From contig OX344758.2 of assembly GCA_947034885.2 (NCBI GenBank), positions 436,501-500,500 on the forward strand: 64,000 nt of DNA, given 5' to 3'. Position 1 is the stretch's first letter. The number at the start of each line of letters is the position of its first letter. The position numbers were made by a program, and so were the translations under genes. This document shows, one piece after another, positions 1,170 through 62,500 of the stretch. This DNA is from Thuidium tamariscinum. Taxonomy: Eukaryota; Streptophyta; Bryopsida; Hypnales; Thuidiaceae. The notes beneath the pieces were generated by a model. That model saw only the letters and a list, made by a program, of their open reading frames with translations, was not told the DNA's origin and ran no database searches.

Positions 1170-1172
1170 TAA

Positions 1173-5073: not shown

Positions 5074-5076
5074 TAA

Positions 5077-14682: not shown

Positions 14683-14753
14683 AATTGGTAGTTATTGCCA
14701 CTTTTTGGTACATTGTTCACACAATGTACCAAAAAGTGATAGTAACTACCAAT
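14683..14753. repeat. 33-bp near-perfect hairpin
   Basis: ATTGGTAGTT..CATTGT at 14683-14715 pairs with 14721-14753 across a 5-base loop. The three mismatches I count are all transitions, which an RNA copy would tolerate as G-U pairs. Could be a tiny MITE or a small-RNA precursor; nothing here tells them apart. Confidence 0.7.
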
Positions 14754-24309: not shown

Positions 24310-24313
24310 TTAA

Positions 24314-26485: not shown

Positions 26486-26489
26486 TTAA

Positions 26490-34000: not shown

Positions 34001-34699
34001 TTAACCCCTAACTGCTTGTGTGACCATATATGGTTGTGCAAAAAATTTCAACTCAAATGTGAATGGACAATTAAATTCCTTTGACCGTTTTGAAAAAAAT
34101 TTCGGGAAGTTTTTAGTGTTAACTATTGGAAACTTTCATTTTTCACTGAAAAAAGTAAATATTTGATTATTTAGGGGTTTTCAAAGGCATGTAAGTAACA
34201 TTAGTGGAGAGTAAAGCTTGCCAATTTTATTTCATTTTCTGCTTTAGTACATAACTTGCCAATTTCACTTGATTTGAGATCTAAGAAATTGTACTTATCC
34301 AAATGATTTGAAAATGGTTCCAGTAGAAAGAGTAAAGTGTTTTCATCACTTTCACCAAAATTGAAAATTTCAACATGCAAGTGTTGATTTGAAGATTTTT
34401 GCGATTTTTAGTTATAGAAAAAAATTGTATTACAACAATTGCAAGGAAGATTGTGTAATGAATTTGATAGCTTTTCAAGTGAAAAGTTTTTGAAAGTACA
34501 TTTTAGTATGCTAACACTATTTGTATTTGTTCATGTCACCATTAATCCCAAAAAACTTTAATATACAAATTTCTAAAACTTTGTGGGGAGAGACAATATA
34601 CTAAAAATAGAAAACACACATTTCTCTTGTTATAATCTCACAACTCCTTTGTAATTTTGCACTCAAAATTGGTAGGTAGACTAATATGCAAGTTGTTAA

Positions 34700-35344
34700 C
34701 CCCAAAATGCCCAAGGCCTATTTTGAGCTTCTTGGAATTTTCTCTAAGTTGAACAAAATGCCAACATTTTGATAAGTTATATCAATTTTTTTTGAATTGT
34801 AACCGTACAAATCCAAACTAGACATATTAGAGATTGCATAGGAAAATAAATGACAACAATAGCATTTATGGAGTGAAAGATTATAATGTTTGACCGTGAA
34901 GGTGTTAAAATTGTAAAAGTGATCTATAGTGTTTCTATCTTCTTTCGCAACTTAAATCTAAAATGTTGGTGACCAAAAAAATATGAGGTGAAAGGGCCTA
35001 ACATGCATAACTCCAATCAATTTATGGCTCCTTAAAATCTACTCTACAATTTTTGTAAATGAATTTTGAATGTGATTTTTTCTCCAAGATCTAGTGTATT
35101 TGAGGCTCATTTTCAAGAGCTCTCAACACTAAGAAAAGTCAAGATTGCAAGGGGTACCCTTGTACAAAATCTTGTATAGAAAAATCACTATCATTCATTT
35201 TTCAGATCAGATTATTGACACTAAAACTAAACTTCTAGAAGAACTTTTCAAAAATGCAAACTATTAAAAATAGCAACTTGGTTAGGTTCTATTTAACTTC
35301 AAAGTTTTGCAAACACTAGATTTTGGTGCCTTGGGTAGTAGGGG
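34700..35344. mobile_element. TTAA-flanked piggyBac-like MITE (family A, nested)
   Basis: TTAA at 34696-34699 and 35345-35348. Same orientation and interior as 25851-26485 and about the same length (645 bp). Ends are CCCCAAAATGCCCAAGG and CCTTGGGTAGTAGGGG. Confidence 0.8.
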
Positions 35345-35446
35345 TTAAAACATCTATGAGGTTGGATTTTGAAAAAAATAATTTTTACCTCATTGAAGAA
35401 GCCAATGTTTTTTTTTCTTAAGAAAAACACACTTGCCAAGGCTTAG

Positions 35447-36179
35447 GGGTGATTGCAAGAAAGACCGGTACTATTTTGCGGCACACTTTGAATGACAGAG
35501 TTGTTATTGCTTATAACTTTTAAAGTATGAACCATATTAACTTGAAATTTTGACTAAAGATTTCTGACATGACAAAAATCAAATTCCTTATTTTTCAGAA
35601 ATTTTCAAAAATCATTTTATAATTAAATTTCAATTAAGCTAATTTGTCACACTTTGTGGTTTAGGGGTTTTTAGTACTGGGGAGCATCCAAAATTAATGA
35701 TCTAAAGCTGAAATTTCTGTGGCCTATTCCCATGCTAGGTAGGCATGTTTCTACCAAAGGAAATCTTTAAAATCATTATTCTCTTTCCTCTACATATGCG
35801 CAAACAGGCCTCCCTTGTGCGCATACTTTTGATCATTTGAGATGGTTTTGAGATCATTCTTTTGGTGAAATCTCTTCATCATAAAGTTCTTCCCAATTTC
35901 CAATTTTTAGTTTTTTTAAAAATTCTTTTTCCTATTTTTTACAAATTAAAATGTCAAAGTAGCTATTTTCATGAAAATTTGCACTTTTCTAGTTCTCCTA
36001 CTTAGAGAATTTTCCTACACTTTTCCTTCCTAGGGTACCTTCTTCTTAGAGGTATATACCTGAAATATATTTTTTACATTTTTTAAAAATTGTTTTTCTA
36101 ATTATATAGTACTCCCGAAAATTTCAGCAGTACTATGGAAAACGCTACATAAATCGGTCGGTCTTTCTTGCAATGACCC
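35447..36179. mobile_element. 733-bp GGGTCATTGCAAG element (copy 3, nested)
   Basis: It starts GGGTGATTGCAAGAAAG and ends CTTTCTTGCAATGACCC, has the same length as copy 1 at 3108, and matches it inside (for example GGTTTAGGGGTTTTTA and CTAATTATATAGTACTCCCG). TTAG stands on both sides (35443-35446, 36180-36183), the best hint of a target duplication for this family. Confidence 0.75.
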
Positions 36180-36977
36180 TTAGGCACTTAGGGGTTAAGG
36201 AGCCAAATTTCATCTAATGAAACCAAGGCACAAAGTAGTGAGGATGTCACAACTAAGGTGTCACAAGCAACGATGCTAGCGCTCGAGCGTGGAGCGGTGA
36301 GCTTGTGAGCTACGAGCATGAAGGTTGCGAGCGGTGAGCCTGAAGCACCTTTTTTTGGAGAAATTTTAGTTGAATTTTGTTTTTGGTTGACTTTTTCAAA
36401 AATTTGAACAAATTTTTTACTATTTATAGTAAATTTTGGTACCTATGACCGTGCCTCCTATAACCGTGGATTGTCATAGAATCCTCTACTTTTGGGCAAT
36501 TATTGTTTAGTGCTATGTATTTAGAGTTTAGGAAATTTTTTTCTGAACCATAGCAAAGAATATGCCAATGACTTTAAATACAAAGACTTGTATCACATTC
36601 CAATAGTGAATTGTATTTTTTTCACTACCCGGAATGTATATGGACAATTCCAAAAGTGAGTGAATTAAAAAAAGGTCAAAAAATAGAAACACATGCCAAA
36701 AAAGATGCCTTCAAAATTAGAATATATCATTTCAATTGCACTATATGTAAAGAAATACAATATGAATGTAATACACACCAAAAACTAACCATACCTACTT
36801 AGAAATAATGATAATCTCTACTTGAACTAGAAATAGCTTCAAGTCATTGAAGCTATATCTAAGTGCATAAATGAATTTGTCATCATCAATATCTATGTAA
36901 ATAGTATAAGTGCTTACAATTTACACATTGCAATTTTCTTTTGACAAGGGACACCACTATATTGATAAAATTAGACC

Positions 36978-39900
36978 TTATACATATAGGATATAAGGAA
37001 ATATACCAATTGTCACTTGATATACATTTTTATTTGGCTCCACCCTAATCTCCAACACCGCTATTGCACCAAGTCCTAGAAGAGGTATAAAGATTACTTC
37101 CAGAATTTGTCCTCTAATATTTCCAACACTTTTTCGTTTGTTTTTTTGTTCTTTAGTTGGATCATTTGCAAGTCTTTTAATTGTTTGGTTGTTCTTTACT
37201 ATTGGATGTGCATTTAGATTTGGTGGACATGATTGGTTGAAAAAGACAAGCTCAAAAATTTTAGCCATTGTAAAGAATTTAGTTGGCAATAATGTGGGCC
37301 AGTTGTAGGGGCAAAAACTTGCATCCTATAAGAGTAAAGTCTTCTCTCGATTGAGATTGGTCCATATTAGTATAGGCTAAATTTCAAGTAGCTCTGGCTA
37401 ATCAATGACTCACTTCATCTTTGTGCCTTCTATACATCATTCAATGTCATTCTAACAGAACAAGAAATCCACGACCTCTCGCTTAGTTCAAAACTCTTGT
37501 TTTCTACTATAATATGTTGGAGCTTGGGTTTCCTTTCTATCCTTTGCAATCCTTGAAGTACACTTGATGTTTGATGTTTGTTGTTGAGCAAAGCATCTTA
37601 CACTCAATTTGTATTTGATCCTTGTAATATGCCACTTCAATGTATTACAATCGCATTTGCATACTACCAAACGTCACATAGTAGAGAGGATTGACATCAT
37701 TGCGATTTTGAGTACCTTTTATTAAATCTTCTATAACCTTTTTAGACTATATTTGAAGTTTTGAACGTAGGGCTACAAAAAGTTGACTTTGTTTGATCTA
37801 TATTAATCTCTTACATCACCAATAGGTACATCAAGTGTCTTCTTTGTGCTTCCAAAAATTCTTCTCCTTCCAGATGTGGTACTCAAGTTCCCGCACCATG
37901 TACTTTTGGCAATGTATTCAATACTTTTCCAATTTTTTTGAGGCATCCATTGCATCTTGCACCTCTCAACTTCAATTCCTCCCTTTGATGATCTTGACCC
38001 TAATGCATATTTGCTTAGGTATGTTCGGTAGTTTGTCATTTGCATCTAGGTGCAAATATTGTCAAAACAAGATGCATCTAACAAATTGTTTTTTCTTCTT
38101 CCTAACATTTATAGCCACTTACTGTTATATACCATTTTAGACAAATTATAGAAAATCATATACGTCATCTTTTCTAAAGTGAGACCCTAAAAATCCAATT
38201 ATAGCAAAAAATGAATACAAAATGGAAACACTATTGACATGCCAATTATATTTCAAATTGCTTTGCATAGTTGCAAGCATTTTAGTACAAGGTTTTAGGT
38301 CTAAAAGAGTATAATTGAACTTAGGAATTTAGACCTAAAACCTTGTACCTTAGGGTATACTTAGAGCCGTCAGATCCGATGGATGTCAAAATGATGGCCC
38401 ATACTAGTCCCATTTTGGAACCTTTCAAATTCTTATTACCATAAATTTTCAATCACTTGCACTAAAATATTTCACTAATTAGATCTAGTTATGAAAAAAA
38501 TTCTTCCACTATCAAATTCAAATCTCTAGTCCTCAATTTCTAATAGAATAAAAAAATATTTTCAGTACCAAAAGAAGATTCAGTTACCATTGTCATGAAG
38601 CCTCTCCATTGTAAATACTGGATATGCCAAAATGTAAGCCAGTGGTCTGAGTAATGAAGTGAATCTTCACTTACAACTCTACATGAGAACCACCACGACC
38701 TAATTGCAAGAGAGCATGTCTTCACTTCATTCAAAGTCTTTGATTCTTTGTATTGTTTACATACTGTAATGTACTATTGTTGGAATGTTTACTTGATGTG
38801 CTTCTATATAAGTTTGTAAATGAATTATTCCTATGTAGTTTACAAGCCCTCTTATGATTTTTTAAGACCTCATTTGCAAGACCACTACCATAAACAATGC
38901 AAACCACATTCCAATTGACCATAGCACTATCTACCATGAACTCCTTAAAATTTGGCATATGCACTCTTTTTTTCTCTACTTTAACGTTCAACAACCTTCA
39001 AAATTACACTTGGATCTCCGTATCTTTTGATTGCATACCACAAATAGCAATAGTCATTTCTTTCTTGTACTGAAAGTTGTACACGTGGCAAGCCATGGTG
39101 GTCAATTGTTCATGTGCTTTGCATGGTCAAACATTATCTACGCATTCTGTAGATCACCTCCAAGTTGCATGTGCCTCATCAAGTCGACTCTACTTCTAGG
39201 TCCTTCAATGAACATTTTGAAGATGTAAACCTTTTCTTTGCTATGGCTTGGAAAGATATTATAGTGTATGAATTCAAACTTGGATTCCCTCTTCATAGTC
39301 ATAATGATGTCAATGAACCCTTTTTGGTTGTTTGAACATAAAGAGGCGATGATATTCCATATACTACTATTTAGAAACTTGAAGCAATCTATGACCCCTT
39401 CTATTTCCTCTCCTTTCAAGATCTACTTTACTCCCTTTCTATGGTGAAATGAGCGGTTTGTGAAATCTATGCTAGCAGACAAGGCAATGGTGGAATTTGT
39501 GGCTATAGAGGTTTTGGCAACTTCATCTACAATGAGTATAGTAATTTCTTTTGTAGAGTCTATATACATGATTTTTTCTATTGAGTGACTATGATTTCCT
39601 AAAAGAATTACAGCCCTACTCAAATTAAGGTTGTCACTACAACAATAGTAAATCTTCGTGTCACAAGTGTCATTTTAGGAATCAATTCAAGAACATTCTC
39701 CAATGTCATTTCAAGAATCTCGTTCATGCTCTAATGCCTTTCCATCTACACTAGCAATACATCCATTTTTTTTGTCAAACTTAAAATGATAAATAAGCAA
39801 AAGCAAAGTCATGCACTATCTTGAAATTTAACTCACCTCTTTAAGGAACTCAAGCCTATTAGAGGGATGAGCCACTACTAATAGTAGTTTGTCCATTTTT

Positions 39901-40040
39901 ACCATCAAAGTATTAGTTCTCTCTTTCGCTCTTGTCTTTACAGCATAAATGACCTCTTTTAGCCTTTTGTTGCTTTTTGGTATGGCATTAATATAATTTC
40001 TCATTGCAACATGTGCTACTTGAAAAATATCTTGGTGCAT
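36978..40040 (-). pseudogene. decayed MULE-type transposase
   Basis: A chain of minus-strand open segments runs from about 40040 down to 36978, in several frames with gaps between them. The segment at 38731-38994 has FMVDSAMVNWN, then KRACKLH, which looks like the Asp and the C-x-x-H of the MULE transposase core (D..CxWH pattern). Upstream segments (39138-39419, DLMRHMQLGGD) and downstream ones (38540-38734, IRSWWFS, HYSDHWLTFWH) read like one continuous protein. The last segment (36978-37289) is basic. The gene has clearly lost function, with many stops and shifts. Its place next to the left terminal repeat fits the Mutator-like call for the large element. The family assignment rests on my reading of motifs by eye. 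Confidence 0.45.
38285..38348. repeat. 21-bp perfect hairpin
   Basis: GTACAAGGTTTTAGGTCTAAA at 38285-38305 is the exact reverse complement of 38328-38348, with a 22-base loop. It lies in a gap between transposase segments, so it is either in a former intron or a tiny inserted element. Confidence 0.8.
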
Positions 40041-40269
40041 GATTACCCCATTTTTTCACTTAGTTATCAAGAAAGTTTCAAAAGCATGCCAAGCAAAAGG
40101 ATTTGAATTTCTTAAAGAACAACGTATTTTTCTTTAAATAAATGATGTAAAAACCTCCATAAGTACAATGTACCATTTCTTGAAAACCATGCTTTCAAAA
40201 CACCTTTTCTTCTTTGTGAGGCTAAATAAGTAGATTTGTGAATCATTCACCAGCAAAAGTCTATACTTT

Positions 40270-41640
40270 TGCACTTGGTACAAAGTGAAGGTTATATTCT
40301 ACTCAATTTCAAAGCTATCTTTTTAGTCATGGTTTCAAAAAAATTTGAAAAATAGACCTTTGAAAAAACCAATGGTATCAAAACTAGAAGTATCTTTTAA
40401 CATCCTATAAAGTTCAATTGGATTCAATAGACCTTTATGGGGTGCTTGGAGGTGCCCCTTCTTTTAGGTACCCTGTTGAATTTCAAAACTATCTTCTTAG
40501 TCATGGTTTCAAAAAATTAAAAAAATACTTTAAAAAAAGTCAATGGTATCAAAATTAGAATTAATTCTAAGAGTACTATAAAGTTTAGTTGTATCCAAGA
40601 GAAATTGGGGGATGCTTGGAACTACCTCTCTTTTTAGATACCCTGCTGAATTTCAAAACTATCTTTTTGGTTATGATTTAAAACACTTAGGAAATTGTTT
40701 AAAAAAAAATTAAAGGATAACAAATTAGGAGTACTATCAGGCACTTCCAATTTCCAAAAGGGCCATCGGTACCCCGAGTTTAGGTACCCTACTAAGTCCA
40801 AAATCAAAGTTTTGGTCATAGTCTTAATTTTTTTAATTTTTTTTCCTATATTAATAATTAATCAAGAGAATTATATGATAAATTAATTTAAAAAAATTCA
40901 AATTTTTTTAAACTATGACAAAAAATTTGATTTTTGACTTAGAAAGGCACCTAAATTGGGGGTACTATGAGGCACCCCAAAAAGGTCCGTCGGATCCGAC
41001 GGCCCTTTTGGAGGTGCCTCATAGTACCCCTAATTTGGGCTCCTTGAATTTTTCGAAAAAAAAATTTCCTAAATTTTTTAAACCATGATCAAAAAGATAG
41101 TTTTGAAATTCAACAGGGTATCTAAAAGAGAGGTAGTTCCAAGCATCCTCCAATTTCTTTTGGATCCAAATAAAATTTATAGGACTCTAATAATTAATTC
41201 TAGTTTTTATACCATTGACTTTTTCAAAAGTATTTTTTCAATGTTTTGAAACCATGAGTAAAAAGATAGTTTTGAAATTCAACAGGGTACCTAAAAGAGG
41301 GGCACCTCCAAGCACCCCATAAAGGTCTATTGAATCCAATTGAACTTTATGGGATGTTGAAATATACTTCTAGTTTTGATACCACTAACTTTTTCAAAGG
41401 TATTTTTTTCAAAATATTTGAAACTATGACCAAAGTCTTAATTTTGAATTCAATTGGATACGTAAAAGAGGGGAGCACTAAGTACCTTAAAAGGTCTGTT
41501 GGATCCTATGGAACTTTATGGGGTGGTTGGATACTTAGAGTTAGAGTACCATGAGATACCTAAAAAAACCCGCTTCTTTTTGGAGTATCTCATGGTATCC
41601 CAATTTTGGATACCATTGAAATATTTTTGTAGAAATCTTG
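40270..41640. mobile_element. large modular palindrome centred on GTCGGATCCGAC
   Basis: The centre at 40984-40999 is CGTCGGATCCGACGG. On each side, modules of about 170 bp repeat in tandem and point towards the centre. They contain AATTTCAAAACTATC on the left (near 40295, 40480, 40650) and GATAGTTTTGAAATT on the right (near 41095, 41265). Arms are imperfect, with about 60 bp extra AT-rich DNA on the left. No coding capacity. Related smaller palindromes with the same core lie at 45418-45500 and 45768-45860. It is probably a foldback-type element built from a repeated hairpin module. Confidence 0.6.
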
Positions 41641-42121
41641 AACTTTCAAAGGATGCTCTTTTGGTGAACATTGATCATTTTAGTTATTCTTTCTATAAGC
41701 TAAGTAATCATTCAAGTGAAATTTTTGAACAGTTGGAGATCTCAAAAATACTGCTCATGTTTTAGAATCAGAGGTCAAATTCAATAAACTAAAACCCTAG
41801 CTACAAAGTGAATGACCATGCCATACTACTTTGCAAAGTGAATACTTGCCATTTTTCAATTTCCGGACTTTGCGCACTCAAGCTTCAATGATTCCATCTC
41901 GCCAATGACAAAAGACTGTAGATGCCTAAAAAACAAGAATCATTTTTTTTTCAGAATATCTGGGTGTACTCAACAGTGCCAATTTCAGATTTTAGAACCC
42001 TTGAAGAAGTTCTTAATGAGATACTTATAGCTATAGGAGGGAATTTAGGAATTGAAATTTTACATTTGATTAAACCTACCAAGGACAATAAATTTGAGCT
42101 TAGTAAAGCTTTGAAATTTCA

Positions 42122-45088
42122 CACTACTAGAAATGGGGGGTATATATGACTGCAGCAAATGACTGGTATATGACTACCTGTCCGATGTGACTCAAAAATG
42201 ACTGACTCTTCCATAATTGCACCACTGGTGGGTCCGAAGCAGTTCTTGAGTCATTTGCAAGTCATTTTCTGCAACTCCTGGATGTAACCAACTTGAAGTG
42301 GCAAGGTCTAGTGGACTTTCATCTGTGTTGACGTCATAGTGTTCATGCAGTCATTTAATCCGACTACGCTTTACTTTTACATGACTAAGAAATGACTGAA
42401 GGGTCTATGGGACCACCTGATGGGATTTTTTTGGCAAAAGCGGGCAGGGCAGCATGTTGACGTGGAATGCAGTCGCAGTATTGCTACTAGGATGCGACTG
42501 TGAATGACTTGGGAATTACTAAGAAATTACTTCAAAGATGTTCTCTATACTTTTTGTGGATTCTAAGCTTTTCAAGGTCTGCTTGCTCCTTCTTGCTGAC
42601 GTGGACATAAGTTACTGTAGAATGACTGCCATGTGACTGTCTAAGTGAAAGAAGAGCAAGCATTTCAGTTGCTCGAGGCAGCACTTTAGGAAAAATTTTA
42701 AAGCATGTACAGATATACATGAAGAACATACACTAATGTTGTACATCTCACGAGACTTCTTGTATAACGTACATTAGAGTATTAGTTGAAGTCTTCTTGT
42801 AAAGCACATGGAGGAGCTTCAACGCTGTGGCGGAATTCCATTAGGCCGCGTCCCATACAGGCTTCTGTCTTCAGTAATATCTTGTGATGCAACTCCTGAC
42901 CTCCTATGTGTTCACAGTTGCTACCTGAGTTTCCTCCTTCTATACATTTTCTAGTCAAGGGCGACTCCACTGAATCTTAAGAATGACTGGTACACTACTA
43001 TAGTACAACTAAGGAATGACTTTCCATGACTTCTGGGCAACACATGTTTGAATGCGCAAATACTGCCACAAATGCTAAGATTTGGTCAAGAAACTGAATA
43101 CAGAAGAAATGTAATTTCGTCTTCAGGTTATACAAACACCTCATGCATGATAGAGTGTTGCAAACACTGCGCCACTGAAGCTGTACTTAAGCCAGACCAA
43201 TGTAATACTTTGGTCCTAATACTCCCCATCAGCTAACAAGTTCGATCTCTTGCTCAGTCAACTCCATGGCTCCAACTAGATTAACCACCTCTTCAGGATC
43301 AGGAAAGCTATTAGGTGCTCTCAAGCCTGGAGTCTCACTTCTTGTAGAGATGAATGCGTCTATTGTGTCCAAAACTTCACGTCTTGCTTGGGCCTCTTTT
43401 ACAACACTACTTTCCAACCAGGTCTACCTACAACATCTGAAAAGAATACTTGTGTCGCTTGGCTTGGGAATATGAAGGGCTCAGATAGGCGAGGTAGCTT
43501 GTGCCAAAAGTTCACCACAAGGAATCCAGACTCATCCCGTGTATATGTTGGATTCCCTCGACTGTCTTGGGGTTTCAACCACTCACAGCGTAATAGAATG
43601 ATACGCATGCTCAATGTACCATAATCTAGCTCCAACACATCTTTCAAAATTCCTACATAGTTCGCAGTCGATTCATCTCCATTCTTTGAGTACTCCTGAA
43701 AAACGGAAGCTATTCTATTGTTGTAGATCAACAGGTGGGTTGTTTGGTTGTCTTCTACTCGAAACTGATTACCAAATGCAAGGACTCGTCCGTACCGAGT
43801 GGCCCTTAGCGATGGCTTCTTGCTTAGTAAAAAGCAATCCATCTCAATCAATTGGATTCCTCAAGTCCATGTTTGCATTTTGCATTGTCCGTTGAATCCA
43901 ATCAGAGAGTGCTAGGGTGTTTGGATTTTGGTCTAATTCATTCCTCCACTTCCTATACACGAAAGGTCAATTAATATTATGAGTTGCTGGCAGGAAAGGA
44001 CATGCACATTAGAAGGCAAGTACAATGGTCACAATGCAGCCGTTGGAACGACTATGACTACATCCCCTTCTATGACTATAAAATCACTTCAATAAGTCAC
44101 GTTCAAGTCATTCTTTAGTTTTAGGTGTTATAACGACTCCTATATGACTTGAACACAACTTTGGCGCTACTGTAGGGCCATCAATTCCTGCATTTTATAT
44201 ACCCCAAATGGTTTGTCTTGCCTTCTACTATCCCAATCCTATAAAGAGCTTCTCATTTCATCTCTGGATACTCACACACTAAGTGCTTTAAGAAGCCATG
44301 TGATACTTGTATCAAATATGATATATGTTGTATAGTGTATTGTATGATTTTTTATTATGTATGGCATATTGTATATGGTGTATAATTATGTATGGCATAC
44401 TGTATATGGTAAATCATTGTAATACTTTGAATGTGCTTATATGTAACTTTAGAATGACTATAAAATGACTTGCCACATGTCAATCCATTTACAAAATGCA
44501 AAAACTCCATCATGACTAAAAAAACATTTCTTTAAATGTACTGACATGTCAGAATAGTCAGATTACTCATTGACATTATCACAACTGCACAATGACTTCA
44601 AAACGACTCTGTAAATGTACTGACACGTCAGACTGTTCACTAACATTATCGCAACTGCACAGTGACTTCAAAATGACTCTGAGATGGCAATCCACGTCAG
44701 CTTCTTAACAACTAAGTTGCAACTTCAGAATGACTTAAAAACCGCTGACGTGGTCGTCCACATCAGCAGGTCTATGACTCAGACCCGACTCGTCCGTGAC
44801 TGTGGATGACTCTGACGTGGACACCTAAGTCCCAAAATTTTCAGGAAAGTGGGCAGATGCTCGCCTTTTTCCATAGCACCTGCCCCAAACCGTCCCTTGC
44901 CACGTGGACCTTGTCATCGATTTTCATCCAAGGTAGATTCAGATGGTGCTAATACAAACGCAGAGTCATAAATAATGACTTGTCCACAATGACTCGGAGC
45001 CTGGAGTCACCGTGAAGTCATTTTTGTCCTAAATGACTCCCCTGCAGTCATATACTGGAGTCATATATACCCCCCATTTCTTGTAATG
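42122..45088. mobile_element. CACTA transposon with remains of its DUF4216 gene
   Basis: It begins CACTACTAGAAATGGGGGG and ends with the matching inverted sequence, where the terminal CACTA has one change (CATTA on the minus strand). TCA at 42119-42121 and 45089-45091 is the 3-bp duplication. Both subterminal regions are filled with ATGACT and AGTCAT motifs, dozens of them, in both orientations. A minus-strand relic of a DUF4216-type protein lies in the middle. The main transposase part is gone, so the element is an internally deleted derivative. Confidence 0.85.
43205..43990 (-). pseudogene. CACTA-associated DUF4216 protein, fragment
   Basis: Minus-strand frames at 43990-43860, 43851-43399 and 43417-43229 read on from one another. 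The long frame has GILKDVLELDYG, LLRCEW, GFLVVNFWH and EPFIFPSQATQVFF, the order of conserved phrases in DUF4216 (usually YxGVIKDIxELDYG, F+CDWV, GFxxVNF, PFxLAxQAxQVFY). This domain sits at the end of En/Spm transposase-type proteins in plants. The frame shifts once near 43400-43417, after GRPGWKVV, and again upstream. The tail (LVGAMELTEQEIELVS) is acidic. About 250 residues remain of a protein that is normally much longer. Confidence 0.7.
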
Positions 45089-45417
45089 TCAATTGATTTT
45101 TGATTCTTCATACATTAATCTTTTGTAGAATTCTTGGATAGCCTTTCTTGGATTAGGTCTTTATACCTTTGATAATTGTATCCGAAAGAATTTGCTTTAG
45201 TTTTCAGCTGAGTTTCTAATTACATATAAATTTTTGATTCCAGACATGCTAGAGTCAAATAAGCTTGTTTGAGGGCATTTTTCTCTTACTTGTGACCCTC
45301 AATCTAATTTTCTATCGAAACTAACTAGAAGTGTTGTACTTCAGCGCATAAACGCACTCTTTTGGTTTGTTTGTTTTTTTCAAAAACGGCTTGTTTAAAC
45401 TGCTTAGTGTACCAATA

Positions 45418-45500
45418 CTGGGGGTACTACGAGATACTCTAGGAAACACCGTCGGATCCGACGGTGTTTCCTAGAGTATCTCGTGGTACCCTTAGTTTTG
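45418..45500. repeat. palindrome with GTCGGATCCGAC core
   Basis: GGGTACTACGAGATACTC..ACCGTCGGATCCGACGGT..GAGTATCTCGTGGTACCC forms a hairpin of about 38 bp per arm with only a couple of mismatches. Same core and module ends as the large palindrome at 40270-41640. Confidence 0.8.
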
Positions 45501-45767
45501 GCATATTGAGAAGTATGTTTTAAGAAAATTTGTGAAACCATTTTTTATTTTGGGTTTTTAGTTCAAATCCCTGGGGTTTTTTGGCTTGCAAAAGCCTTGA
45601 TCTAAACTCAATGCCATATATTAGATCTTCCATGATTGAGTTCTTTGACACTTTATTTTTGAAAATCAATGGCCATGTAAGCAGATTCTTCATAAATGAT
45701 GTTTTCTTAAGAAATTTTATTCTTTGCGAATTTCTAATTTTCTTTGAAATCTCAATTAGGTACCAAA

Positions 45768-45860
45768 AATTGGGGTACCATGGGATACTAGAGAAAGTAC
45801 CGTCGGATCCGATTGTATATTCTAAGATCTCTCATGGTACCCTAGTTTTGGGTACCCTTG
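45768..45860. repeat. decayed palindrome with GTCGGATCCGA core
   Basis: GGGTACCATGGGATACT..GTCGGATCCGA..CTCATGGTACCC, a more diverged copy of the 45418-45500 palindrome, about 270 bp downstream of it. Confidence 0.65.
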
Positions 45861-46199
45861 TGAATTCCATTATTATTATTTTTATTAATTCTCTTATTTG
45901 TGTGCAATTTTTCCAAGTTCCTAACGCTATTTTAGGGCCAACATAAGGTTTTCAATGATTTTTTAGCAAGTATAGAGCATTGAAGTCCAACTTTGTGCGT
46001 GCCATCTCCACGTGTGCATTGCGCGCTGCCTTGTGCGAGGGGACCCCATTTGTGTATACATATTTTGAATCTGTAGTATTAAGCCAAACTTGCTAACCCT
46101 CACTCGGTGTTTTAGAAATTAGCCCAAAGTTGGCACCCAATTGTTTCAAATTTCTTTCATCTCTTGTAGTCAAACCTCTTCATTTTTCTATTTCTAATT

Positions 46200-49100
46200 T
46201 TCTCCATGGTTGGAATGTCAAAGTAAGGGCATTCATGCTCGTGAGGGCGTTGCCGGTGCCAATGGCCAAGTTTTATCCATTCAAGCCTTATATGAAGGAG
46301 GTCCATCCGAGGCAAAGACTTCAAAAGATGTTGAAGAGGTGGTTGGAGAATCCAAAGATGAAGAGATAGAGGAAGAGGAAGAGGATCTACCGATTTGGTA
46401 AGATTTGAGGACATCATGAGTGTAGCAAGTTGTATTGTAGATGCCTTGGATGTCTTTGTGCACACCCGCAATACTAATTGGCCAGGTCACCTTGTCGCGG
46501 GCTTCAATCACAAGCACAAGAAGGTTGAGTTTTCTCCTGAGAGCTTAGAGATCAAGTATAGCTCAGAGCCACAGACATGCACGTCCATTATAAGTCTAGA
46601 GTTGCACGAGTTGAATGACTCAAATGATAGTGGTAGACTGCATTTTGAGGGAGAATTCATCATTATTCTCAGCTCAAACTTAGACACTGACAATAAGGTT
46701 GATGTTGTTAGTATTTGAATGGCACTACAGATTGCCCATCTAGTTCTGAGAGCTCCTTGAGCCTACTACTTAGTGAACTTTTTTTGCAATCAAAACGGCA
46801 GTCATTTTGGACTTCCAATTTGATGTAAAGGGTTCACTATTTTGGCTCATCAATGATCAATGATGTCTTGTGTATTCATTCAATATCCCTTTTTATTTTA
46901 AGTGATGGAATTGGATTTGCAAATGGTTGTCACACCAGTAGCTAAAAGGCAAGAAGATAGAATCATGGAGACTCTTGGAAGAGAAGATAACCTTCAATCC
47001 AACATTAACGGGAATGGAGACTTCAATCAACCTAGAGTGGGGGGTGAAGAAGACGTAGAGATGTTAAAGGGAGATGACATGGGTGACAATGAAGAAAAGG
47101 ACCTCCTTGAAGACAACCTCCAAAGGCTGCAGAAAGTGGACTCCATCACCACCATCAATGCCTCGAGGATGAAGCCCAAGAAGACCTTCCACCTCACTAT
47201 TCCTCTTTGTAGGATGTTTGCTATGCCAATGGTTCTGCCCACCCTCTCATGTGACATCTAGTTCCTAGAGAGGGAATTCATAGGTGGATATTGGGATGAT
47301 GTAGTTGTCTTCTATGTGTCTACCGCCAATGAGGCAAGAGAGTCCTCACAGTTCATCAAGGAGGAAATGGATGAGTGGGACCCTGTATAGAAATGCAAAA
47401 ATGTAGAGTTTGAGAGCTAATTGAATGCCAATCCAGGTCTCAAGTGCCTCAAGAACTCTAAGTTCTTCGTCTATCACGGAAACCATCGACTCCTTGTATG
47501 GATGAATGTCATTTCCAAGATGTATGCCACCAACTATGATTAGTACTATGCAGTGGACAACATTCTCTTAAACACAAAGGGGAAAATTGAGCTTGTTATG
47601 TAGGTCATACACAACATCAATAAGTAGGTGCATGAAAACAACTCTACTCTCTCTTGCTTGTCTTGCATATACTATATTTTCAATTGCATCTTGTTCTACA
47701 CAATGAAAATCAATTCTTATCTTATTTAAATTTGATGGAATGTACAGATCCACGGAGGATTCACACATCAAAACCAACCTTGTACACACTCTCTACTGGA
47801 TGCAAAAGTATGGCCTACTGCCTATGAAAAGGTTCAATGAAATGCTCAGGCCTTTGGAGAGAAAGAAATGTATTGCACTGCCAACAAAAAGGACGTAGTA
47901 CTCCATATCTATAGAGGTCTTCACTTCCTTCATCTTCAGGGTAAGACTTACAAAAGGCCTCTCCTTTACATCCACTCTCTGTTTCTTGTTATTGCCTTGG
48001 TTTCTTTCATTTGCTAAGGTTTGAAAAAAATGTGGGAATAGACAACAAGAGATTGTCATGGCAACTCGTAGATGCAGCGCTTTGAAGATATACAGAGACG
48101 ACATCACTTGAGAATCAAACCATAGAAGGAGAAACTCTATCCACGAGGGTGGAAGCCAAGAAAAAGAATGTCAAATTCTATGTCAAGATGATCAAGCTCC
48201 TCACCATTGCCAATCCCGCTTATGGAATGCGATTCCTTGAAGAGATTAGTTGAATTGCTTCATTGATCATGTCTTCTTTCACTGTCATTCTTCCTTGCAT
48301 TCAAAATGAAATTCAATGGCTTTGTGATTGTCTAGGTGGAGAGGCATTGAAGCTCCAATGAGGTGCCCGAAACGATACTCGAGAAATTGAAGATGCTAGT
48401 CACCTGCAACACGATGCCATACCACAAAATGAAGTTCCTCAAGTGGTAGAACACATCCATTCCATCTCATGATGCTAGGAAGTTCCTAGCCAAACTCGTT
48501 GCTAAATCACATCTCGAACCATTCTTCAACAAGCATGTCTGGTATGTAGGGATAAGTTCATTTGTTCACACCATTTTAGATTCATGTTGTTATTTCTTTT
48601 GGTGGAAGTGCTTATAGGTACTTTCTTTGCATCTCACGTTTTTGTACATGAAATGAATTTCTTATTCTAATCAACATTTTCTACAGATCGAGGATGCTTC
48701 GGTCCAATACTTCGATGGAATGGTCAGACAAAACAATCTCAAGATTGACATGATGGTCCCGCAATAGTGTGAGCGCTCCTAACTGCACCCTCGAGCTAAG
48801 AGTTTTTCACACAGGTCCTGTGTCTAATTGAGTTTTCTTTCTAATTGGGTATTAAAAGAAAACCTTCCAAGCAATGAACTCTTTTAGTCACGTCTTTTAA
48901 GTGTTTTAATCTAATTTTGTGGTTATAATTCTATCTATTCTATTCTAAAATTCAACCAATCGATCCTACTCTATTCTATTCTATCAAATGTTATTGTGCC
49001 TAAATCTAATTCCAAGTATTTGGTAAAAAGAAACTTAACAGTAAAACGATGAGAATGAAAATTAAATGTGAGCGGTTTACCTCCTCTGCGTAAATCTCCA

Positions 49101-52100
49101 TGGTCCCGTCGTCAAACATCATCATGTGCAAATATTCTCCCACAACCTCGCCATCGAAATCATCCCGGCTCTCCATCTAATCCATAATAATTTTCACGTT
49201 GTTGGTCAATTAATTCTATCTTGCTTAAGAAGAAACTAAATGTTATGTAGCGTTAATTTAATTGCGTAATTCCTTTAATTCCTAAATCCCTGGTAATTAG
49301 GAAATACTGCAATTTAATTAGTCTACGTAGGTTGTTAAAGTTCTATTCTAACAAAATCAATGGAAATCTAATGATTCACTATTTGTTGTTTTAGTTTTTA
49401 TTTTAGTTATAAATTGATGTTATAAAATTCCAATTGAATTAAATTAATTTGGATGGAAAATTCCCTTCAAATCTTTTCAAATCCAATTAATTTTTGAAAT
49501 TATTTTAATTCTAATGAAATTGGTTGTCAATTTGTTTGTTTCCTTTTTGGCTTATTAGAATATTTTAATCAAAAACTATCATCAAATCTTTTCAAATCTA
49601 ATTAATTTTAAATTTGCGTTAGTTTGTAAGGAAATTAGTTGTCAATTTGTTTGTTTCCTTTTTGGCTTATTAGAATAATTTAATCAAAAAATCATCATCA
49701 AATCTTTTCAAATCCAATTAATTTTAAATTTGCGTTAGTTTGTAAGGAAATTAGTTGTCAATTTGTTTGTTTCCTTTTTGGCTTATTAGGCCTAATAAAA
49801 CAAAACCAACAAAATCCAAACCTTCTAAGAATCTAATTAATGACTAACTACCAAAGAACAAAGAACATTCCTAAAGAACAAGAATCAACTCAATAGTAAG
49901 ATTCCTAAGAAATTAGTTTTTAAAGCAAACAAAGGTCAAAGCAAGGGAATAAGAACCAAATTCAATAGTGATTATTCTCCAACAATTAGTTTTTTAATGA
50001 ATCTTGAGGTTCCGGTGCCTTAATCTCCTAATCCTCCTTTCTCTCTTTCATTCTTGTTTTTGTCATGAGTTGCAAGTTTGGAGAGAGAGAGTTGGCTATG
50101 GTGGCGGAATGTTGCGGAGAATTTAGTGACCAAGTTTTTGAAATCCCAAATGTTAGATTTTTAGTGAAAATAAAAAATTATGGGGTTGTGGCTTCCACTG
50201 CCAACCCAAAGATTTTCAAAAAAATCAAATTTTTGTGATCAAAATGTGACTTAGTAGCCCTGGACTCACTGAGTCTGTTAGTCGTTGGACCTCATCTCAG
50301 TCGCTGGACCTCCACGCTCAGTCGCTGGACCTCCCGCCCCGTTGCTGGGCTTCCCCGCCCCCGCACCACGTGTCCCGGTGTGAGTGGCCGGCTGGGGGGG
50401 CTCTCACACCAAGGCTACCGCACCAGGGGCTGCCGCACCAGGGGCTGGGTGTCGCACCAGGAGACTGGTGTTCTAATAACTTTTTGGTCTTCTAATACTA
50501 ATAACCTTGCTTTGAAGGTTGACTAATTATTGAGCAATGAGAGGTGAGATGTGATTGGATGAACTAACGGTTCCCAAACTTCAATTACATCCAAAGTTTG
50601 ACCCTTTTTTACCTTCGAGTTTGAGGGATCCTTGTGATGTATTATAATATGAAGATTAGTTGGGTTTTATTGTTCCCAAGTTCAAAGCTTCGCCGTTTAA
50701 TCTACTTTCTTGCCAATGGGTTTGGCTATAATCCATTCCTCTAGTATTTTAGGAATTTTAATCGCAAAAGGAGGTACACATGACAGTGTTTAAATCGAAC
50801 TTTCACTTCAAATTCTTAAAATTTCTTAGTATTTTGGGATTTTGCAACCAAAGGAGGTACACATGACAGTGTTTAAACCGAACTTTGGCGCTCAATGCTC
50901 AAAATTTCCGTGAATGAGTGGCAAAGGAAGTGTTGAGGCTTTACCTCCAGAGAATATGTGAGAAAGGAATGACAAATGAAGGGGCCCTAAGCCTTCAAAT
51001 CTTGGAAAACTAAACACAAAACAAGACTTGGCCAAAATCTTTGGTCCAAGTGGTGCTCCAACCACGCCGGTAGCACGGAAGAATAACAAAGTGTCGGTGC
51101 GAGAAATAAGGGTACTGACAACCTCGAGGGGGGCCCTTTATATACCCGTGGCCGGGCCCCTCTCGGTAATTGCCAGTGAAAACACTTTGTTACTTTCTAC
51201 CCTACACTACCCTAATGTAATTCCAAAATATTAGTTGTTTAATGGTGAAAATTTCTAAAAACATCCCCATTTGGCAAAAGAAATCTTGGCCAAATCAAAT
51301 CCAAGATCTTAACCCAAAATATTTTGGAATTAACCCTAATTTATGTAGATATTTTGCAAATTAACCAAAAGTCACTTTGAAAATGGTCTTTCTTTAGCCC
51401 AAAGATGGCTTTTTATGCAAGAAAGAGATCTTGACCAAATCCAATCTTTGATTTTCCAAGAGATATTTCCAAAATCACTCCTAATTACCCGCAATTAACG
51501 ATTAAAAAGTCAAACTAAGAGCTGACCCTCTCTATCTTTTAGGGAACAACTTGAAACGGAAAACCGTCTGCACCATTGTCTTCAGAAGACCCCAACTAGC
51601 CTGAGAGACCCCTTACCCCTCACTCCTAGGCCATTTGCACGCCCAAATTGGAATTACGGTAACTCCAATTAAAAGTAAAAAATCTAACTTCTAGGATTTA
51701 CGCATTTCGATGAATCTGTCAGGCCAGGGTTGTTAGGAATGTCCGTGAGAGTAAGGAATGACTCCTTATTTGCGACAATCGGACATCATTCGCTCTTGAT
51801 ACGCCGGTCAACCCGCCGCCAACTTGTAACTTCCAGTGAAATTCAATGTCGATGCTGGTTTTGGTAGTTGGGAATGTTGGAATGTCTTCAAACTTGACCG
51901 GGCGCTTATTTAGCACACAAAAACCTATCCTAATTTTTAGTGAGATTTTACCGCATCATACGTAATTTCTATAAATTTACGAACATTTCTATATGCGGTT
52001 GACTTCCCATGGAGTCAACGTGGAATTTCGGAAAAATCCGAAATAAATTGGGTAATATCTAGGGCACTCCTAGATTCTTTGTGTAAGTCCCACGCAACCT

Positions 52101-54360
52101 TGCACCTTTCTAATTTTAGTAATTTAGAATTACTTTGTCCAATTGGACAATTTAATTCCCGATGCCCAGGAATCTTGGACAATTGTTTGATCCTTGTTCG
52201 TTCCTGGCATGCTCCTACCCTTGGAACACCTCTCTGTAGTCTTCAATCTCCAATCCTCCATCTTTTTATCTCGTGAAGTTCGAATTCTCCAAATCCATTG
52301 TAGTGGTTTTACTTTTAAATTCAATTTGTTCCAAAATTGAACTTAAGCCCTGGTAATTCTTCTAGGCTCGTAGTAGACTCTTTCTGCTTAGTTAGTATGT
52401 CATGTGCATCCTTAAAAGGTTGATTTTGCACAGACAATCGCTAAGACTGACTAACTCTCTATTCCTTATTTCTCTTGGAATTACTAAATCTTCACATAAA
52501 CTTGCTTTGGAGCCTTAGAATGATTCAAATTTCTAGGATTAGGAATTTTCCACCTTCTAAGTTGGTTTTCCACCATTTTGGCATAGACTAACACCAAAAC
52601 TCCCTTAACACTCTTTTTATGTCTTTTTCTTGAATATTTTGGATAATTTTCGCTATTTAATCGCGAAAAATGGACTCAGAGTCCTGAGTGCCATCTTGAG
52701 GGCTCACAAATAGCCAGAGATATTTCCTGACTACATTGAGGGATGGAGGAGGAAGATCTAGGACCAAGGATTTGGACCTATCTTCAAAGGTGCTAATTAC
52801 TTTAAGAAAGAAGATTCATTCATGAATTACAAAGGCTCCAACTTAGTGGTCCAAAGAGTTCTTTTCTGGTATACTTTAAACATTGGTCAATGTTTTTCTA
52901 AAGTCATTTGCCTTATGCTTTGACCTTGTTGCTTACAATTCTATCATGTTTGTTGTTGAAGGATATACCATTTGAAGCTCAACAGGATATTGGTTGCTAG
53001 AGTTTGTTAATTCTTTCTATTCATTCAATTGATCGGTGTGGCAAATACTTCAAGTATGAGCTCCAAGAAAAGGGGGCAATTGAATGAAGGGACTTGCCAC
53101 CTTTCTTGTCCTCGTGGTTTGACCGCAACTCCACTGATTGTCTGTTCTCCGCGAGCCAGCTATGCATGTTCACCACTGCTCATCTCAATGGAGGAACCTC
53201 ATATTTGGAATGCTTTCTGGGATTTACCTATGAATCAGAGGCACAACTACAATAATACTTGGAGGGAAAAGGGTCCATTGACTTAGAAGTGGATGAGTTC
53301 ATTGGCTTGACAGATAAGCAGAGGAAGAAAGCCAGAAGAGGGATGCTAACGACATGAAGAAGAAAGCACGAGTCCAAGTTCTACTCAATGCCAAGGAGAA
53401 GAAGGAAGTGGAGAGACTTGCCAAGCTCATGGAAAAAGAGAGGGAAAGGAGAAGGAATAGGCCAACAACAAAGGAAGAAGAAGGCAAAGGCGACCACCCA
53501 AGTCCCAGCATCCTCCACAATTGATCAAGGCTTTCAACTCTAGGTTGGATCTCAGAGTGGAGTCAAGAGGAAGGCCACTTTATCAGAGCTCTTGGAAGAG
53601 GTCATCACTCATGTATCTCAAGGATTTATTCTCACCAACGAAGAGTTCATCAAGTCCAAAGACTTGATCCTCAATGTCTCCATTATGGAACTTTTGGAAG
53701 ACGTGGACTCCAACAAGCCTACTTGTTACAAGTCTTGGCCTTCTTGAAGAAAGTACTCACTTCAAACTTCAAATTGGTCATTGTTCATTTTGTCTCGTCA
53801 ACATCAATAGTGTACATGCTACTTCTTCATTTGCTGATGTACTTCATGTTGGCACTTGGCAGGTGTTCATGACAAAAAACAAATATTTCTATGGGCAGTA
53901 GAGCACTTGATTGGGGGTATACGTTGTCTTCTTCCACTGCCTTGAGAACTTGCCTATCCTAGGGTTGTCTTTTCCTAAAGATGATGTGCCCAATTGGAAT
54001 GGAGACGTTGAAGATGAGGCCCTCCAGTCAACCTTCAGCTTTGCGTGCAAGCATCTCTAAGACGACAGCTATGTCATTGTCTTCTACTCATATGGCATCA
54101 AATTGAGGAGCAACATACTGAAGCAAAGTCTTTTTTTTGAGTCCTCAAAAAACTTTCGACCTTCCCATCTATGCAAAGCAAATGGCAAGTGCCTTTGTGA
54201 GTTTTAGTTCCTCTAAACCAAAACATCATAAAGACATATATGCCCTAAATGTTTTACAGTTTATAGATGGATCAACATATGTGGGTAGAGAGTCTTCTAA
54301 GTCATCAAAGAGTTCTCATTTTGAGATTGAGTCCTCAATGATTTAGACTCACGGAATTGA
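46200..54360 (+). pseudogene. decayed multi-exon gene of the large element, unknown function
   Basis: Plus-strand open segments run from about 46210 to 48766 and, after the inserted block at 48768-52708, from 52709 to about 54340. The two halves meet at the AATAG duplication. Features in order are an acidic stretch (near 46330-46400), an Asp/Glu-rich region (46902-47150), a segment with FIGGYWDD and GNHRLL (47270-47480), a PDYIEGWR segment (52725), and a Lys/Arg/Glu-rich coiled-coil segment (53310-53510) ending in ELLEEVITHVSQG. GNHRLL recalls the GxHRLxA motif of ParB-like nucleases, but this is weak. The segment has several breaks and cannot make a protein. I have the impression that relatives are common in seed-free plant genomes; that is memory, not a search. 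Confidence 0.4.
48768..52708 (-). mobile_element. solo-LTR-like block, LTR retroelement fossil
   Basis: A 3.94-kb block with TG..CA ends and a short terminal inverted repeat (TGTGAGC and GCTCACA), flanked by a 5-bp duplication AATAG at 48763-48767 and 52709-52713. These are the marks of an LTR insertion. No second LTR and no internal coding region were found, so a solo LTR left by recombination fits best. On the minus strand a TATA-box-like GGGTATATAAAGGG lies near 51128-51142. It contains a 115-bp tandem repeat (about 49520-49795) and a GC-rich repeat of the phrase AGTCGCTGGACCTC (50270-50335). The matching duplication suggests moderate age. Confidence 0.6.
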
Positions 54361-54375
54361 CATATTCCGTGAGTC
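54346..54375. repeat. 12-bp perfect hairpin near the end of the decayed gene
   Basis: GACTCACGGAAT pairs with ATTCCGTGAGTC across a 6-base loop. It sits just after the last open segment of the pseudogene; a role is not evident. Confidence 0.6.
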
Positions 54376-54701
54376 AAACTATTGTATGTTGCCTTCTATT
54401 CTGATTGGATTTGTGTGTTTTATAGCTACATCTTGGTACTTTATGGTATTCATTTTCATTTTTCATTGTATGAATTATCTTTTAACCAACAACATTTCAA
54501 CATTCTCCCCTAAACACCAAATTCTAACTCAAAAAGATTGATAAACTTCATCCTAAAACACTAAACCATGGTCATGAGACCCCCTTCACTTATCCACGGT
54601 CATAGGTCCAAAAGGAAATTTTTCCTTAAAAAAAATTCCCGCTCACAAGCTCACAGGCTCACGCTCCTAGGCTTGCCTGCTAGCAACCCTGGTGTCACAA
54701 G

Positions 54702-58836: not shown

Positions 58837-59137
58837 GGGCCAGCTTCCATGCGAGCCGGGCCGGTAAGAAAGCCGCAAGACGACAAGCAGGAGCTGCCGA
58901 TTCTCTTGCCGGCCTCGGTGAGCGGAGAAGCAGGAGCAGCAGCTTCACCGATATCGGTGGAAGACCGGTGGAAGACAGGATTGGTGGAGAGCGATCAAAC
59001 TTCAGGGAATCGTCACGTGTGCTCTTCTTACTCGACATCTCCCCAGCCACCGGGTTCACATAGAAGTGTATCGCTCACTTGTCACTGTAGCTCTCCCGGG
59101 AAACTTCTACCGGCCCGGCTCACATGGAAGCTGGCCC
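58837..59137. mobile_element. 301-bp GC-rich MITE, PIF/Harbinger-like
   Basis: TTA at 58834-58836 and 59138-59140 flanks ends GGGCCAGCTTCCATG and CATGGAAGCTGGCCC; arms continue as GAGCCGGGCCGGTA. It is strikingly GC-rich against its surroundings. The open frames here on both strands reflect this composition. Confidence 0.8.
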
Positions 59138-59140
59138 TTA

Positions 59141-59381
59141 GTGGGCAGGGAGAACTGACCCCTCGCTTGGCCACTTGAGTAAAATGCTGTAATTTTTTAT
59201 TTTTCACACAAATATTTTTTTGCAAATTTTGAATTCATATTTGCGATCAGAGACCGCAAATTAGCTAGGGGGTGTTGAAAGTAGGGGTGATCACGGCCCA
59301 AACTAGGGGGCTTTTTGTTTTGATTGCACCTCTGGTAAAACATGGGAAGGCCGAGCGAGGGGGCCAATCCACCCAGATCTT
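59141..59381. mobile_element. second copy of the 31397 hAT-like MITE
   Basis: From GGGCAGGGAGAACTGACC to CCACCCAGATCT it matches 31397-31635 with only a few differences over 0.24 kb. The 8-bp duplication seen for the first copy is absent here, probably because other insertions replaced the flank. It ends about 150 bp before the hydrolase start codon. Confidence 0.75.
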
Positions 59382-59533
59382 CGTGGGACTGGTTTAACGT
59401 CTTGCGATTAAACTTAACAGTTTTGTTCACAGAAGTTATCAAATTTGCCAGAGCATCCATGGAGGACACAGAGAATATACACTTTCCGGTCTTGTAGCAA
59501 GGCGGTAACAGACAGGGAGCTTGCAAATTGCAA

Positions 59534-62500
59534 ATGAATGTTGTTGGGTTGCGAGGATTTGGGGTTCGCATCGTCACTAGGGGAAACAGCAACAGCAGCA
59601 GCAGCCCAGCTATGGCGGTTTTGTCGATAATTCCCATTCCGAGTTGTGCGAAGAGCTTCCATGGCATGAACCCTAAACCCAAATTGTGTTCCGCCAGGCC
59701 ATGGAGCTCGCAGGCCATACGTGCTGACGCGGGAGCTGCTGCAGTTTCGGACGCTGCAGCCAAGGTAAGGGTTCGCAGTTGCTAGAAAGTTGGATTATAG
59801 TGCGATTTAGGGAATGGGGTGTGATTATTTTTGGTTGAATGGGTGTCGAGGGTTGAGTGCCGAATTAGAAATTTTGTTGCTCCTTTGCTCCGATTATTGA
59901 AAGATGTTCCATTTGTTTCAATTTTGCTCCATTTGTTCCATTTTGCTGCATTTTGTTCCAAATTGTTCAATGAGCCTGTGTCGTGTTCGTATAGAGAGCT
60001 GCACAGTCGGGTGCTTTCGTGGACGGATTACTGGGGAGCCAGGCTGCAAGCCCGCCCACCACTTCACAGATTCTTTTCTTGGGAACGGGCACCAGTGAAG
60101 GCATTCCTCGCGTTAGTTGTCTCACCAATCTGGCGAAGTCGTGTCCTGTAAGTTTTCAAATTCATGAGCTGGGACTATATCGGGAGTTGGACAATGAAAA
60201 TTTAGCTGAGATTCCAAATGGCTTGGTTAATCGCCAGCAATTTGTAATGAAATTTGCAGAGGGTGCGCAGTTATTGAATAACTTGAATACATGTTAGGCT
60301 GAAATTTTCTGTTCTTTACTTCAGGTTTCGGTTTGGGGGTGTGGATATAGGTTGGGAGTTTTTTTCAGAATGAGAGTGCTGGATGCTGATGGCTCCGTGT
60401 CGTTTGTGTGCACAGGTGTGTCTGGCCGCTGCTCAACTGGGAAACAAAAACAGGCGACGCAACACTAGTTTGATGGTGCGGTATTTGGCTCCTGATGGAC
60501 GTCTGCTCAACATTCTTATTGATGCTGGCAAGTACGACTCCACCTTCCTTTGTCCCCATCCATTGACAGTTTGAAATCGATTCCCTTCCTTTGAGGTTTT
60601 CATATGTCTCCTTTGACATGCTGTAACAGGTTTTTTGATGATTTGCCAGATTCTTCTATCATAGCGCAATGCAATGGTTCCCCTATTACGGGTGCGATTC
60701 TCTACACAATACCTTATCCTTAGTGAAGAGAAAGGCCACCAAAGTTGTTCATTGCTTCATTGAGTTCCAGCTGGTGATCATGTATTGTATGGGGATGATC
60801 AGAAAGTCTTATCCAAAGTGGACATCACGTCAACTGTTTTGCAGGATAAGAAATCTGGATGCAGTGATCATCACACATGCTCATGCTGATGCCAACGGCG
60901 GTAAGTCGTGTGTTCTTACAGTCGGGATGCACGCTGTGAAGAGAGAATTCTGTTGATGTGCATAGTTAACCCGTAAAGAACCGAAGGGTTCAAGTGGGCC
61001 TTATGTTTTTGAGCAGTACTGAGCAGGTCGTACGGGGACTTTCTTTAGTTATTGACCAGCATATGCGGTGTCTGAGCTTCTCCTGGTGGCATTAAATCCG
61101 GTCTCATCTGAATTATATTTTTTACAAAGTGACCAATTGAATTCAAACCCGTGAATCCTTGGTACTTTGGGGGTTCAGGTAGCTTCAGCGCAATTGGACA
61201 GCTTTTTTGTCACAAGGCTGGTTAAGCAACGTGAATTGGCTTGCCCTTTTGTGAATCCTCAATTTGTTACATTGACTGCAGGGTTGGATGATTTGCGGGA
61301 TTGGACCAATAATGTCCAGCCTCACATCCCCATATATGTAGGTCTCCGTGACTTAACGGTAGGTCTTTTCAATCTGTCTCATTTACTGCAGTTCCGTTTC
61401 TGCCTGCAACTGTAGTTGGCATTGTTTCTGTGTACATGAAAGACTTAATTTGCCGTCTCTCTCTTTAGGTCAGAATCGTGCAGCAAATTTCTAACGGAGA
61501 CAAATGATGCAGGTAATGGCCAAATCGCACTACTATTTGGTGGACACAAGCGTGGTCATGAAGGGGACAGCTGTGACCAAATTGCAGTTCATTCCAATGA
61601 GTGAGGAGCCCTTCCAAGTACATGGCCTCAAGGTACGTTCCCAGCTGTGTTTTCTCAATTGCTTGAGGATATTAATCTTGTATGAAAAAATGTTTAGGGT
61701 ACCGATAATTGCTCTTGGGCAGAGACGTGTCTCTCACAGGCTGGTGACTGGGTCTTGACCAGGTGACTCCATTGCCTGTTTGGCATGGACCAGGCTATCG
61801 GTCTCTTGGGTTTCGCATTGGTGGCATTTGTTACATCAGGTAATTTTTATATCAACTTATATTAATATTTTCGCTTACTCGCGCCTTGAACCAGACACCA
61901 TCTCTTGACCCGAGGAACCTCGTGGAGTGTTGAAACAATAAAGTTGTCCATAAATTCTTTAAAAGTGGGGGTGCCGACCTTGTTTCAGTGAAAAAGTAAA
62001 GGTGAATCTAGAATAATGCGGTGCATTTGGTGTTGGCAAGTCATTTCTTGGTGGTTTTATTTCAAGTTTTTGAAATAGTGTTGAATTCTCGAATAACTCT
62101 CATGCAATTATGCACTTGCTATTCTACGATCATTGAAATTTGTTGCTGAAGTGGCGACAATGTTATTGTGCAGTGATGCAAGCGAAATTCCTACTGAGAC
62201 ATACCCCCTTTTGAGAAACTGCGATCTTCTCATTCTGGTACCGTATATGTTCTTGTATGGCCTTAGTCCTACTGCTTATATGTGCTTCTAGTTTGAATGG
62301 ACGTGTATGACGTACTAAAATCTTCAGAAATGCGTATCTAAGCGCATTTGTTATATACATCTAAGATGGAAGCAGCCTTTTTTAGGGTTTTGTTTCGTTG
62401 TTTGCAGGACGCCTTACGACCGGACCGATCTAGTGCAACCCATTTCGGAATGCCTGCGGTGGGCACACTGAAACTTGATGTTTGGTGTCCATATTTAGGT

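Follow-up and report, generated by a model that had tools for sequence, protein, structure and literature searches.

An 18.4-kb candidate Mutator-like element with short diverged ends, a 10-bp target-site duplication and a module common to its two outward-facing genes in Thuidium tamariscinum

The window analysed in our study is a stretch of 64,000 nt from Thuidium tamariscinum (GCA_947034885.2, contig OX344758.2, positions 436,501-500,500 of the forward strand), and all positions given here are counted from its first letter. Between 36268 and 54691 it contains a segment of 18,424 bp with short inverted ends, decayed coding stretches on either side of the middle and a further transposon nested inside, the whole being flanked by a 10-bp direct duplication. 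The features are as follows.

36258..36267, plus strand: left copy of the target-site duplication, 10 bp, GTGTCACAAG
36268..36486, plus strand: left end, with CAACGATGCTAGC, a GAGC-rich block and then TTTTGGTACCTATGACCGTG
38480..39430, minus strand: decayed coding-like stretch, the transposase-like segments of the first-pass annotation, with no accepted domain
39665..40298, minus strand: left module copy, oriented toward the left end and aligned in three pieces that are taken as exons
40305..41525, no strand: palindromic array with a unit of about 170 bp
42122..45088, no strand: nested CACTA transposon of 2,967 bp, with ends CACTACTAGAAATGGGGGG and, inverted, CATTACAAGAAATGGGGGG
43399..43860, minus strand: open frame of 153 aa with DUF4216, inside the nested CACTA transposon
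46100..48800, plus strand: 5' part of the right gene, its upstream extent taken from open frames only
51202..51556, no strand: dispersed repeat, 74% identical to 12254-11899
52600..54350, plus strand: coding-like frames toward the right end, for which no homologue was found
54472..54691, minus strand: right end, read inward, with CAGGGTTGCTAGC, a GAGC-rich block and TTTTGGACCTATGACCGTGG
54692..54701, plus strand: right copy of the target-site duplication, 10 bp, GTGTCACAAG

The identical flanking copies reported in the first-pass annotation abut 36268 and 54691 exactly, and the match extends to 11 bp when the preceding base is included, the G on the right side then counting also as the final base of the element within the limits used here. 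With up to one mismatch, the window has 8 matches to GTGTCACAAG; shuffled sequences had 3.64 on average, and at least 8 in 4 of 100 cases. A third exact copy lies inside the element at 39658-39667; it was considered as a real boundary and was rejected on inspection by eye, as no matching end stands alongside it. When the joined flanks were searched within the window for an empty site, no match spanning the junction was found, because the left-flank match to 3108-3840 stops at 36179.

Several other repeats are present around the element. The segments 3108-3840 and 35447-36179 are direct copies of one repeat, with 74% identity across 738 aligned positions; 78 bp separate the end of the latter from the left target duplication. 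Three copies of a repeat of about 655 nt, 84-91% alike and in two orientations, are found at 24310-26489 and 34696-35348, one of them about 0.9 kb to the left of the element. An inverted repeat at 1168-5078, with 730-nt arms that are 99% complementary, start near CTAAGGGTACGTCCACACCGGC and enclose 2,451 nt, looks like a young long-arm element, and in a quick scan around its ends the longest direct match in common did not exceed 7 bases. The Pfam search outside the element covered one plus-strand frame of 1-15,000 and all six frames of 18,500-23,300 and 59,000-63,800. It gave mitochondrial carrier domain matches in three plus-strand frames of 18500-23300 (two above the Pfam cut-off and one below), which suggests a host gene or its remnant.

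Both ends of the element carry GCTAGC, as had been noted earlier, and 10 of the terminal 13 bases are identical when the two ends are read inward. The inverted blocks are collinear in both ends, in the order of terminal bases, a GAGC-rich block ending in GTGAGCTTGTGAGC, and TTTTGG(T)ACCTATGACCGTG; the spacing between the two aligned blocks is 96 bp longer in the left end than in the right, and the distance from the terminus to the start of the second block is 166 bases on the left as against 78 on the right. The common sequences named in the first-pass annotation stood for GCTAGC and for GTGAGCTTGTGAGC, which is exact at 36297-36310 (plus strand) and 54641-54654 (minus strand), and fell for ACCTATGACCGTGG, which is exact in the right end only. 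Its counterpart in the left end is ACCTATGACCGTGC followed by CCTATAACCGTGG, and the block is better described as TTTTGG(T)ACCTATGACCGTG with one additional base on the left. At up to 3 mismatches GTGAGCTTGTGAGC has 5 matches in the window, of which the third is again in the right end (1 mismatch) and two are elsewhere (3 mismatches each), and 21 of 100 shuffles gave at least 5 such matches. For the 13-mer CCTATGACCGTGG, all three of the window matches at up to 2 mismatches fall within the two ends, and at least 3 were obtained in 2 of 100 shuffles.

The right gene and the left side of the element have a protein-coding module in common. The segment 40298-39665 (minus strand) is homologous to 47776-48416 (plus strand), on which tblastn between the two halves, blastn and a frameshift-aware alignment agree, the last with a score of 212 against at most 52 in 200 shuffles. 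The module comprises about 150 codons in three pieces of 54, 67 and 27 codons, lying in the right gene at 47776-47940, 48059-48259 and 48336-48416 (plus strand), and the pieces are read as putative exons; the spacers between them measure 105 and 76 bp on the left and 118 and 76 bp on the right. No frameshift occurs within the three pieces, and five are present in the whole alignment including the spacers. Thus the gene beside the right end, which had been called unrelated, contains a module homologous to that of the left gene, while the earlier view that the genes run outward from the middle is borne out by the direction of the module on both sides.

Identity at codon positions 1, 2 and 3 was 0.53, 0.62 and 0.33 over 225 codons, with the spacers and five frameshifts included, and 0.50-0.56, 0.61-0.67 and 0.33-0.40 for the three pieces taken separately, in comparison to composition-expected values of 0.29, 0.29 and 0.25; because its score is computed from amino acids, this alignment is biased toward positions 1 and 2. 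When the three pieces were aligned simply as nucleotides, the values by codon position were still 0.67, 0.76 and 0.53 (Fisher p = 3.3e-4). Since the third positions are the most diverged, the copies parted while selection acted on the protein and decayed later, and the left and right modules are old paralogs and not a recent palindrome. A simple palindrome formed in place is ruled out by this codon-position-dependent divergence, and the arms moreover have no convincing similarity apart from the module and the ends. Six in-frame stops are present in the three module pieces, and when two 148-codon copies were simulated neutrally to 0.52 identity (300 runs), the mean was 9.6 stops and the minimum 2, so that the stops alone cannot separate a palindrome from paralogs.

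Beyond the module, five stretches compared with the whole window scored 62, 56, 66, 61 and 61 against null maxima of 56, 53, 57, 55 and 63, four of the five slightly exceeding their 16 null scores. The score of 62 (null maximum 56) is the top match elsewhere in the window of 38480-39430 (minus strand), and it lies at 48612-48374 (minus strand), antisense to the right gene; the 5' part of the right gene has its best match at 37014-37175 (plus strand). These best matches were not counted as homology. When five stretches of the right gene were compared with the left arm alone, all were at or below their null maxima. The frames at 52600..54350 may be the 3' part of the right gene.

Domain searches were of limited help in assigning a function to these genes. 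In the six frames of 36258-54701 Pfam gave only DUF4216, and no MULE transposase domain was found, which is weak evidence because the genes are decayed. The joined pieces of the outer genes gave no Pfam match or matches far below the cut-off (E 0.068 to 0.2), among the sub-threshold ones TnpV (E 0.079) for the left module. A search of the PDB by sequence with the outer genes gave no accepted match (best E 0.17), and Rfam gave none. No relative was found in phage records by tblastn (three records in one search, best E 4, and none in the other) or in viral contigs, where two pattern matches were both unrelated. Single-sequence folds had a mean pLDDT of 37 and 42; they were uninformative and were discarded for low confidence. 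The left gene had been called transposase-like, a description for which the domain search on these decayed genes returned no accepted match; from its position and appearance it may be the transposase gene, the left stretch possibly resembling plant transposase-like proteins. A GNHR motif in the right gene may be similar to that of ParB-like proteins, and no literature linking Mutator-like elements with ParB was found; neither resemblance enters into the reading given below.

The centre of the outer element is occupied by a separate CACTA element. It has a terminus with an inverted partner, the right end CATTACAAGAAATGGGGGG being one base off (CATTA for CACTA), a 3-bp duplication (TCA at 42119-42121 and 45089-45091) and the associated domain DUF4216 (E = 5.6e-10, 40.1 bits against a cut-off of 30.6); 33 of the 70 AGTCAT/ATGACT hexamers of the window fall within it. 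DUF4216 and the central 50-bp inverted pair had been candidates for parts of the outer element and were rejected, as both belong to this insertion. In comparison to CACTA elements with DUF4216, as these appear in the available part of PMC8978399, the nested insertion alone is alike in its 3-bp duplication, closely spaced end repeats and DUF4216, whereas it gave only DUF4216 with no Transposase_21 match and has the CATTA end.

With the CACTA element and one copy of its duplication subtracted, 15,454 bp remains. The palindromic array at 40305..41525 is probably also a later insertion, and hairpins with CCGTCGGATCCGACGG-type cores at 45399-45514 and 45756-45856, across the CACTA element, are related to it. 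The stretch at 48.8-52.6 kb, which contains the dispersed repeat at 51202..51556, is probably inserted DNA as well. An ancestral unit of about 10 kb, after subtraction of nested insertions, had been proposed earlier; the 2,967-bp CACTA element is the one insertion that is established, and a further reduction to about 10 kb would hold if the array and the stretch at 48.8-52.6 kb had both been inserted as well.

The paired ends and the duplication point to an element of 18,424 bp that was inserted once, and the first-pass reading of one element with a 10-bp duplication, decayed outward genes and nested insertions is supported. We consider 36268-54691 to be one decayed Mutator-like (MULE) DNA transposon with short diverged terminal repeats, at a probability of roughly 0.55. 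MULEs have target duplications of 8-11 bp (PMC6446971), and there is an established class of MULEs whose ends are short and match poorly (PMC3903597), according to the excerpts of these two papers. The 10-bp duplication right outside the ends lies in this range, and the inverted terminal repeats are present in the non-TIR form only, being short and poorly matched; a 10-bp duplication together with short diverged ends fits the non-TIR kind of MULE. Ten identical bases would be retained with P = 0.04 at 0.15 substitutions per site per copy, and the ends differ more than the identical duplication suggests if all the differences had arisen after insertion. Given that the two duplication copies have stayed identical, the ends were probably already unlike each other when the element moved, before its insertion, and this suits either a non-TIR element or two related elements joined into a composite.

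The comparison with known systems rests on partial texts of the cited papers. Non-TIR MULEs such as VANDAL (PMC6446971, PMC3903597) are alike in the long duplication and the short diverged repeats, whereas the element here has no recognisable MULE transposase domain, and its left and right genes have a common module of a kind not described in the excerpts of these two papers. Maize MuDR likewise has two genes in opposite orientations (PMC9168764), and maize Mu elements have a 9-bp direct duplication, similar in length, whereas the ends of Mu are strongly conserved and about 220 bp long (PMC3276141). MuDR combines a transposase gene with a second gene whose function is unknown (PMC3276141); here, on the other hand, the module is present on both sides and faces outward, and the MuDR-like pair of unrelated genes once proposed gives way to two genes with a homologous module. 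The barley MULE Hvu_Abermu is also large (8,176 bp), with three ORFs of which one is opposite, and differs in its 138-145 bp terminal repeats, 9-bp duplication and identifiable MURA-like transposase; both it and MuDR have a transposase gene plus others of unknown function (PMC9168764). No case of divergent or composite MULEs was found in the literature at the level of titles and abstract openings.

In the proposed mechanism, the transposase would bind two sites at either end, the terminal GAGC-rich block and TTTTGG(T)ACCTATGACCGTG, excise the element and join it to a staggered cut, leaving the 10-bp duplication, and the outward-facing genes would be carried on either side of the middle. The three-piece module of the left and right genes diverged under selection long before the death of both copies. 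After the insertion, the middle gained the CACTA element and probably also the palindromic array, and the right half probably gained retroelement-like DNA.

A composite origin is doubtful. Here two related elements, head to head, would have moved once by means of their outer ends, each giving one outer end and a paralogous gene. The ends are only moderately alike despite the identical duplication, and the genes of the two sides are paralogs that diverged under selection, as expected of two related families; moreover, in the accessible part of PMC3310237 recombination between related elements is raised as a possible origin of MULEs with additional end repeats, the question being left undecided. 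However, a profile built from the two ends found no inner ends, nor any third place above its inclusion threshold, although such a small profile has a limited reach; its five weak matches below the threshold had E values of 0.34 to 7.7, three of them within the element. Further, only the three-piece module is common to both sides and the rest has no convincing counterpart across. It is also rather unlikely that the locus represents a Mutator-like family whose proteins on the two sides have a common, otherwise undescribed module under selection, whether such a family normally has two related outward genes or arose by head-to-head fusion of two related elements that move as one.

Gene capture is improbable. 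The module fragments would then come from a host gene family and would have been taken up on both sides, as in a Pack-MULE; the similar lengths of the spacers kept in both copies and the lack of an accepted transposon domain in either agree with this origin, but it would require the capture of two ancient paralogs in mirror-image orientation.

A chance pairing, in which each end stems from an insertion of its own and the 10-bp match is an accident, is very unlikely, as the 10-bp repeat stands exactly at both termini and the second block, in order, lifts the match to a score of 68, which only 3 of 3954 pairs of segments drawn at random from this window attained, even though GTGTCACAAG occurs a third time at 39658 and the shared 10-mer with the first block is equalled elsewhere. 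The first block scores 35, whereas random 200-bp pairs (up to 500) reached 34 at most. Of 40 Markov windows, 2 had a shared 10-mer with an equal or better pair (37 and 39), and 10 of the 6390 shared-10-mer pairs of the real window (counted at 500-40,000 bases apart) score higher, the pair of the element being the 11th. Five of these ten are in the listed long inverted repeats, four near 28.46/30.29 kb and one in AT-rich repeat DNA.

Most likely the stretch is a single, long-dead DNA transposon of the plant type, an unusual but not revolutionary representative of a known kind. The locus yields an order of events, namely an insertion with a 10-bp duplication followed by a CACTA insertion within it. 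It also presents a protein module that is common to two genes of one large element and has no accepted Pfam or PDB match. If the module is captured host sequence, the case would be ordinary; if it is a part of the machinery of the element, it would offer a starting point for finding an accessory or transposition protein.
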